Virus record (IMG/VR): IMGVR_UViG_3300025122_005621
Span: 1-26,324 of that record
Source of the DNA: a virus
Length of the DNA stretch: 26,324 nucleotides
Reading direction: 5' to 3' (one strand)
The translations under genes and the position numbers were made by a program. The notes below the pieces were generated by a model. The model worked only from the letters and a program-made list of their open reading frames with translations. It had not been told where the DNA came from and ran no database searches. Position 1 is the stretch's first letter, and each line of letters starts with the position of its first letter. Positions 616 through 1,786 of the stretch are shown here, in pieces.

Positions 616-1251
616 ATGAAAACATTATTTTTTATATTCACCATGCTATCTGCATGTGAGCCGGCCAATGTTAAACTCGCCGAAGAGAGCACTGAAGGCG
701 AAAAAATTATTGGCGCCGAAGATCACACCGGTTCGCACGGCACTAGCGAAGAAGATCTAGAACCTGTTGGGGTTATTCCCGCTTCTGATTGTCAACATAT
801 CGATATGGGAGATAAGGCATGCAATTTTAGATTAGCTGACCAAAACGGAGACACGTGGGACTTATACCGACACAAGGGAGATGTAATCGTGATAGATTTC
901 TCGACAGTGTGGTGCCCTCCGTGTCAGGCCGCCGGCTACTACACTCAAGCAATTCAAGATGATTATGATAGCGAAGGTGTACAGATAGTTACGATTCTTA
1001 TCGACGGCGCCGTAGGGGGAGTAGCACCCACAGAACAAGAGATTGATGATTGGGTTAAAATACATGGGATTACCACGGCGCCTGTACTTGAAGGTTCAAG
1101 AGATAAGATATTTGATCCAACAGCCGTTGAAGGATATTCATTAGGCGCCTTCCCCACCTATCTATATTTGGACAGAGATATGAAGTTCTATGGTGGACAT
1201 GTGGGTTTTAGTGGAGATTATATTCGAGAGAAAATTGAGGAAGGATTATAA
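616..1251 (+). CDS. Thioredoxin-fold (TlpA/ResA-like) lipoprotein
   Basis: This 211-residue protein begins with a short hydrophobic signal peptide and a lipobox-type L-S-A-C with Cys14, so it is probably a lipoprotein at the periplasmic face. An acidic linker (about 20-60) leads to a thioredoxin fold that contains W-C-P-P-C (Cys100 and Cys103), and the family's cis-proline is probably in the F-P-T motif near the C terminus. The fold suggests thiol-disulfide exchange outside the cytoplasm. The start is the ATG at 616, with a gagg sequence just upstream. The stop overlaps the next start (TAATG). A membrane-anchored redox protein is unusual cargo for a phage. It may be a host-derived gene or may alter the host envelope. 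Confidence 0.85.
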   Translation: MKTLFFIFTMLSACEPANVKLAEESTEGEKIIGAEDHTGSHGTSEEDLEPVGVIPASDCQHIDMGDKACNFRLADQNGDTWDLYRHKGDVIVIDFSTVWCPPCQAAGYYTQAIQDDYDSEGVQIVTILIDGAVGGVAPTEQEIDDWVKIHGITTAPVLEGSRDKIFDPTAVEGYSLGAFPTYLYLDRDMKFYGGHVGFSGDYIREKIEEGL

Positions 1252-1460
1252 TGTGGAAAATTTATAAATGGAACGGACACTACATACAGGGCGATCTTGT
1301 AAGCAAACACCGCAGTGAAGATGCCGCACTTAAGAAAGCAAAGAAAGAAATTGATTTTACTTTTGCTGAAAAAGTTAAAAACGGCAACGAAACACTAATT
1401 TGGTTAGATGACAAGCATCACGATCCTGTAGGTGTCATTGTCCAGAAATCGAGGGGGTGA
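1251..1460 (+). CDS. Small hypothetical protein whose stop lies inside the tmRNA
   Basis: This is a 69-residue, charged, soluble protein of unknown function with no signal peptide. It starts at the ATG of a TAATG overlap with the lipoprotein gene, which suggests translational coupling. Its last codons (AGG GGG TGA, 1452-1460) run into the 5' acceptor strand of the tmRNA, which begins at 1453. Processing of the tmRNA 5' end would therefore cut this message before its stop codon. Confidence 0.65.
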   Translation: MWKIYKWNGHYIQGDLVSKHRSEDAALKKAKKEIDFTFAEKVKNGNETLIWLDDKHHDPVGVIVQKSRG

Positions 1461-1786
1461 TATAGGTTTCGACGGGGTATTGAAAGAGCCGAGTGCAAGC
1501 AGGTTAGATACGACCTTAACAGTTCAAAAACAATAGTTGCAAATAACAACAACCACTTCGACGTCGCTCTAGCAGCGTAGTCGGGAGGCCGCTCAAAGCC
1601 TTCTATCCAATTTGAGCAAAACAACAGATAAGTTGTAAAAATCAAACCATCTAATGCAACAGGACGGTAAGCATTAGATTATAACCGTCTATCTTTGTCG
1701 GTAAGTGATAGAAACCGACTACGCTTGTGAATGACTTAACTTTGGACGTATTGCGGACGCGGGTTCGACTCCCGCCACCTCCACCA
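1453..1786 (+). ncRNA. ssrA: tmRNA (one-piece), tag ANNNNHFDVALAA
   Basis: The 334-nt RNA has a tRNA-like end. The 5' GGGGGTG (1453-1459) pairs with CACCTCC (1776-1782), followed by discriminator A and encoded CCA (1784-1786). The T-arm is GCGGG-TTCGACT-CCCGC (1759-1775), and the conserved tmRNA 5' segment with GGTTTCGACGGG is present. The resume codon GCA at 1539 opens a frame encoding ANNNNHFDVALAA, ending at TAG 1578-1580. The C-terminal ALAA matches ClpXP-type degradation tags. It rescues stalled ribosomes by adding this tag. It is tightly packed, overlapping the upstream CDS by 8 nt and ending 13 nt before iscU. tmRNAs are known in some large phages. Confidence 0.97.

Follow-up and report, generated by a model that had tools for sequence, protein, structure and literature searches.

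The stretch of DNA analyzed here (the window) is the linear IMG/VR virus record IMGVR_UViG_3300025122_005621, at its full length of 26,324 bases. Since the T4-type capsid gene Gp23 is encoded in 12 of the 23 contigs (up to 242 kb) that bear the same genes, the window represents, judging from these relatives, part of the genome of a large T4-like marine phage; no isolate phage relative of it was found. A tmRNA is present in all 12 large related contigs tested and SmpB in none of these 12, suggesting that host SmpB would be needed. The part of the window that concerns us here is made up of the following features.

97..441, plus strand: gene for a Fis-like helix-turn-helix (HTH) protein, retained upstream of the tmRNA across this phage group (tblastn homologues, HTH_8)
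616..1251, plus strand: thioredoxin/AhpC-TSA-like protein, whose TAA stop shares the sequence TAATG with the start of the CDS behind it (Pfam AhpC-TSA, E 1e-9)
1251..1460, plus strand: CDS of a conserved 69-aa phage protein, with its last in-frame codons inside the tmRNA gene (ORF table, relatives, alignment, AlphaFold2)
1452..1453, plus strand: predicted RNase P cleavage site, between these bases (from the tmRNA 5' end given by ARAGORN and Rfam)
1453..1786, plus strand: one-piece tmRNA (ssrA) with encoded CCA (ARAGORN, Rfam)
1458..1460, plus strand: stop codon TGA of the CDS, which is nt 6-8 of the tmRNA and the end of its 5' acceptor strand (sequence)
1539..1580, plus strand: tag reading frame, ANNNNHFDVALAA followed by a stop (ARAGORN)
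1776..1782, plus strand: 3' acceptor strand CACCTCC, which pairs with 1453-1459 (sequence, Rfam)
1800..2195, plus strand: IscU/NifU-N-like gene, starting 13 nt past the tmRNA 3' end (Pfam NifU_N, E 1.3e-50)

ARAGORN called the tmRNA at 1453-1786 with the tag ANNNNHFDVALAA, and the Rfam model RF00023 matched the same span over its full length (model positions 1-374; 127.6 bits against a threshold of 47; E 6.5e-50), which confirms the 5' end at 1453 that the original prediction had drawn from the pairing of GGGGGTG with CACCTCC. This pairing (1453-1459 with 1776-1782) forms a 7-bp acceptor stem followed by an encoded ACCA, and our tests for a genuine tmRNA found this stem, the CCA end and an in-frame tag with a hydrophobic degron end. 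Phage-encoded tmRNAs have been described in Melnitz (PMC9004378) and in huge phages (PMC7162821), and the window resembles these cases in that a lytic marine myophage would carry its own tmRNA. When compared to the known phage tmRNAs, the window copy is one-piece and not permuted, and Rfam found no glutamine riboswitch. The permuted tmRNA model RF04321 also matched, at 1295-1580 (51 bits against a threshold of 47), spanning the CDS with large inserts. We rejected a permuted two-piece tmRNA because the one-piece model fits far better and the acceptor stem closes between 1453-1459 and 1776-1782; the RF04321 match, which takes in the CDS together with the tmRNA 5' half, looks like a cross-hit that could mislead annotation.

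The CDS at 1251-1460 runs from ATG to TCG AGG GGG TGA, and the sequence, ARAGORN and Rfam agree with the earlier claim that its AGG GGG TGA end lies inside the tmRNA. This CDS is a real, conserved gene, because it has viral relatives (26 found initially, then 80), 18 residues that are invariant across 20 aligned members, a confident AlphaFold2 model (pLDDT 93.8) and an overlap with the upstream CDS at TAATG. Protein identity within the family falls to about 46%, and the model shows a small, basic, compact beta-beta-alpha-beta-beta-beta fold. Searches against PHROGs, Pfam, PDB sequences and PDB folds (E ≤ 0.001 for folds) gave no significant match, and BFVD contained one near-identical fold in a nameless entry; a Pfam hit to CopC (E 0.019) was below the cut-off and was discarded. 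Neither the 69-aa protein nor 20 members of its family matched the ArfA, ArfB or SmpB families of Pfam. The conserved core of the protein ends at GVIVKK, a few codons before the tmRNA, and copies of the CDS that are detached from the tmRNA stop at about the same length as this core end.

We then compared the junction in 58 distinct relatives in which CDS and tmRNA are adjacent, the tmRNAs being searched with ARAGORN in each record on both strands. The CDS stops inside the tmRNA in 46 of these 58 junctions, with overlaps of 8 nt (28 junctions), 10 nt (5), 12 nt (1), 13 nt (2), 27 nt (6), 40 nt (2), 41 nt (1) or 49 nt (1). Because all three reading frames occur among the overlapping junctions, what they have in common is that no stop precedes the tmRNA, rather than one particular stop codon; the frequent 8-nt overlap is a natural value, since one of the frames meets a TGA in the GGGGNTGA of the tmRNA 5' end. 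In the remaining 12 junctions the CDS ends before the tmRNA, with gaps of 0 nt (3 junctions), 4 nt (1), 10 nt (5), 60 nt (2) or 61 nt (1). Two large contigs have the pair unlinked, with about 21 kb and 35 kb, respectively, between CDS and tmRNA, and two tmRNA-bearing relatives (G012 and G013) are without the CDS. On a tree of 53 junctions, a minimum of 5 switches between the overlapping and the non-overlapping state is required, and the exact stop position must have moved at least 16 times; the count of overlap losses is a lower bound, as the tree excludes 5 junctions (4 of them without overlap) in which the start departs from the MW pattern. In three lineages, the gap of 60-61 nt between CDS and tmRNA is occupied by a tiny cysteine-rich ORF (e.g., MTNCECCGCVPAECECTCCEH and MKCKCCECCACECEKCC) with a Shine-Dalgarno-like run and a stop just before the tmRNA, at 5215-5281 of L013, 1151-1217 of L307 and 5219-5273 of L015.

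As a baseline, we used 125 tmRNAs from outside the family (other phages, prophage-flanking host ssrA copies and 30 genomes of the phylum to which the L307-bearing metagenome-assembled genome, or MAG, belongs), with gene calls that were mechanical ORFs. A credible CDS runs into about 3 of these 125 tmRNAs (L317, L199 and L414), and in L317 (27 nt) and L199 (39 nt) the entering gene is the Fis-like HTH gene. The overlap is therefore a feature of the family beyond chance (46/58 vs. about 3/125), an enrichment among junctions related by descent, which are not to be taken as so many independent events. A CDS also enters about 9 of 52 tRNAs in the same phage loci, so that nonstop ends produced by RNA maturation would not be special to tmRNA. 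CDS ends inside RNA genes are part of the packing style of these phages, with the tmRNA case clearly enriched. Homologues of the Fis-like HTH gene were found by tblastn in 122 loci that also hold a tmRNA; HTH_8 matched 2 of 7 members (best E 2.4e-4), and the window copy had no Pfam match. This gene lies upstream of phage tmRNAs more widely than the 69-aa CDS does, and is also seen in clades with other tags (L164, L170, L199 and L203).

To look for signs of a precursor shared by the CDS and the tmRNA, we calculated by partition function the chance that the acceptor stem forms behind the natural last 60 nt of the CDS, as opposed to synonymous recodings of these. Of 52 cases, 43 favored the natural sequence and 3 the recodings (means 0.87 vs. 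0.65), whereas control segments further up the same CDS gave 29 better and 17 worse, and 18 better and 21 worse, respectively; the first of these controls shows a weaker bias of the same sign, which is a caveat on the shared-precursor reading. The bias holds after clustering of the leaders at 90, 80 and 75% identity and loses significance at 70% (10 clusters). Natural leaders were also better on foreign tmRNAs of the family (36 better, 6 worse), indicating that the sparing of the acceptor stem by the leader is not specific to its own tmRNA. We consider this bias to be moderate support for a shared CDS-tmRNA precursor, and it could be a property that such leaders have in general. A switch based on mispairing of the acceptor stem with the CDS leader, to which one minimum-free-energy fold had pointed, was rejected, since the family-wide test shows the opposite.

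In our assessment the genes are probably packed into a single transcription unit, and the nonstop message is most likely no dedicated sensor but a by-product of this compactness that the phage tolerates. Co-transcription would join the tmRNA to the 69-aa gene and to the thioredoxin-like gene in front of it; in this tightly packed unit the CDS would usually have lost its own stop and end at the first in-frame stop in the 5' region of the tmRNA. An uncut transcript would yield the full 69-aa protein. RNase P is the enzyme that generates the 5' end of bacterial tmRNAs (PMC3985003), and host RNase P, upon making this end here, would leave the CDS of the same transcript without a stop: the predicted site at 1452/1453 lies inside the ORF, 5 nt before the TGA, and the cut message would end in TCG-A with the whole stop codon gone, a geometry that is just as had been proposed. 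Tagging accompanies the rescue of ribosomes from nonstop mRNA (PMC10107115); for those stalling on the cut message, the rescuer would presumably be a tmRNA of host or phage origin, and the tag added to the product would end in LAA. The whole conserved core would be kept in the tagged product, as GVIVKK lies a few codons ahead of the tmRNA. Each transcript would give either an intact CDS message or a tmRNA, never both. By analogy with zntR-arfA, decay of the nonstop message could also lower expression of the upstream thioredoxin-like gene (PMC10107115). That the protein core is complete before the tmRNA starts is what makes the tolerated by-product the most likely reading, and stops at nt 8-49 in three frames suggest that whichever stop comes first is used.

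The original prediction had instead proposed a built-in feedback or sensor: maturation of the tmRNA would produce the nonstop mRNA, and the level or activity of trans-translation would set the level of the 69-aa protein, and perhaps that of the co-transcribed thioredoxin as well, as for arfA and zntR in E. coli. The overlap in most junctions and in all three frames, its ancestral-looking distribution and its retention, for the most part, over a deep divergence all argue for selection, and in E. coli trans-translation does repress nonstop arfA, with upstream zntR repressed along with it (PMC10107115). The proportion of overlapping junctions is also far above both baselines (9/52 for tRNAs and about 3/125 for other tmRNAs), which speaks against a mere by-product and leaves room for selection for the overlap; that the overlap persisted as the stop moved among frames is what a selected nonstop state would give as well. 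However, the geometry is not shared by all homologues: those in the 12 junctions without overlap have a proper stop before the tmRNA, which is the kind of counterexample that the original prediction had named, two contigs carry the pair unlinked, and the overlap has been lost repeatedly. Other genes also enter tmRNAs (L317 and L199), CDSs enter tRNAs in the same loci, and the protein resembles none of ArfA, ArfB and SmpB. Conservation of the overlap, which the prediction had set as one of its checks, thus holds for most relatives and fails for the rest, and a feedback as conserved function is not borne out; since relatives lost the overlap several times, and since other genes and tRNAs show the same arrangement, packing is likelier than a dedicated switch or sensor, and we regard selected feedback as unlikely. 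It is somewhat more doubtful still that the small protein serves to monitor or buffer trans-translation during infection, with rescue RNA and protein mutually exclusive on each transcript and the nonstop remnant passed on to the rescue RNA just made.

The overlap would be without consequence if the tmRNA were transcribed independently, from its own promoter or at another stage of infection, as a tmRNA precursor and a CDS message would then seldom coincide. In Melnitz the tmRNA is placed behind an early promoter (PMC9004378), and the window has a promoter-like TCGAGA-N17-TATAAT at 1224-1252 (10/12 match) that would start RNA inside the CDS. Yet its TATAAT is largely the stop/start TAATG and is missing in several relatives, sigma-70-like sites in the region are near the shuffled expectation (14 vs. 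10.3), and no late promoter TATAAATA lies near the junction. The 3' half of the CDS shows no synonymous conservation in excess of that predicted by codon usage, and hence nothing points to a conserved promoter or RNA element within this gene. A separate tmRNA promoter, which would have told against the original prediction, accordingly finds no conserved signal there, and we consider independent transcription rather improbable. We give very little credence to a functional partnership, in which the 69-aa protein would bind or serve the phage tmRNA in place of host SmpB or in support of it, and the two genes would be neighbors for this reason. The CDS adjoins the tmRNA in nearly all relatives, the large contigs encode no SmpB of their own, and the small basic fold would suit such a role; against this, the pair is 21-35 kb apart in two contigs, G012 and G013 do without the CDS, the HTH gene is the broader tmRNA neighbor and no PDB fold matches.

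The packed unit resembles nonstop arfA of E. coli in that RNA processing would remove the stop, tmRNA would tag the product and an upstream co-transcribed gene could be co-repressed (PMC10107115). This likeness, drawn in the original prediction, stands in outline, as the processing point, predicted in the phage case, lies inside the ORF in both. It does not extend to the product: arfA encodes a backup rescue factor, whose family the 69-aa phage protein does not match in Pfam. In arfA the stop is removed by RNase III or by a terminator inside the ORF, whereas here RNase P acting on the tmRNA itself would do so, and the nonstop state of the phage CDS, unlike that of arfA, is not universal among relatives. 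The junction is also similar to the CDS-tRNA overlaps of compact phage genomes, in which the stop of a CDS falls within a same-strand gene for a structured RNA, except that the tmRNA could itself act on the resulting stalled ribosomes. In mitochondria, where tRNAs punctuate the transcript, excision by RNase P cuts the adjoining messages and can leave incomplete stop codons; there the stop is completed by polyadenylation, whereas here the whole stop would be lost and the rescue would be trans-translation.

An exact-phrase literature search, with most subscription journals outside its scope, returned no description of a CDS-tmRNA gene overlap; phage tmRNAs and arfA-type nonstop messages are already known, and the overlap is a variant of these. 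If the common transcript exists, maturation of a rescue RNA would itself create the substrate of that RNA, and phages would offer a testable connection between the processing of RNA and trans-translation. Should it be plain packing, the arrangement would still mean that phages put up with the loss of a CDS stop upon RNA maturation, and CDS stops inside RNA genes matter for gene calling and for tmRNA annotation.

Relative L307 sits in the Neomarinimicrobiota MAG MED589, and its contig has the gene order HTH-thioredoxin-CDS-tmRNA as in the window. The MAG has its own, different tmRNA with the tag ADYGYAAAA, and the L307 contig is possibly phage DNA that was binned with a candidate host. At 1800-2499 of the window the IscU/NifU-N-like gene is followed by an IscA-like frame; the IscU/NifU-N-like gene is missing from this place in L307. 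Further along the window (10283-25662) we observed a long run of glycosyltransferase-, sialic-acid-synthase- and epimerase-like genes that, from sequence alone, appears to be a phage glycan-synthesis block.
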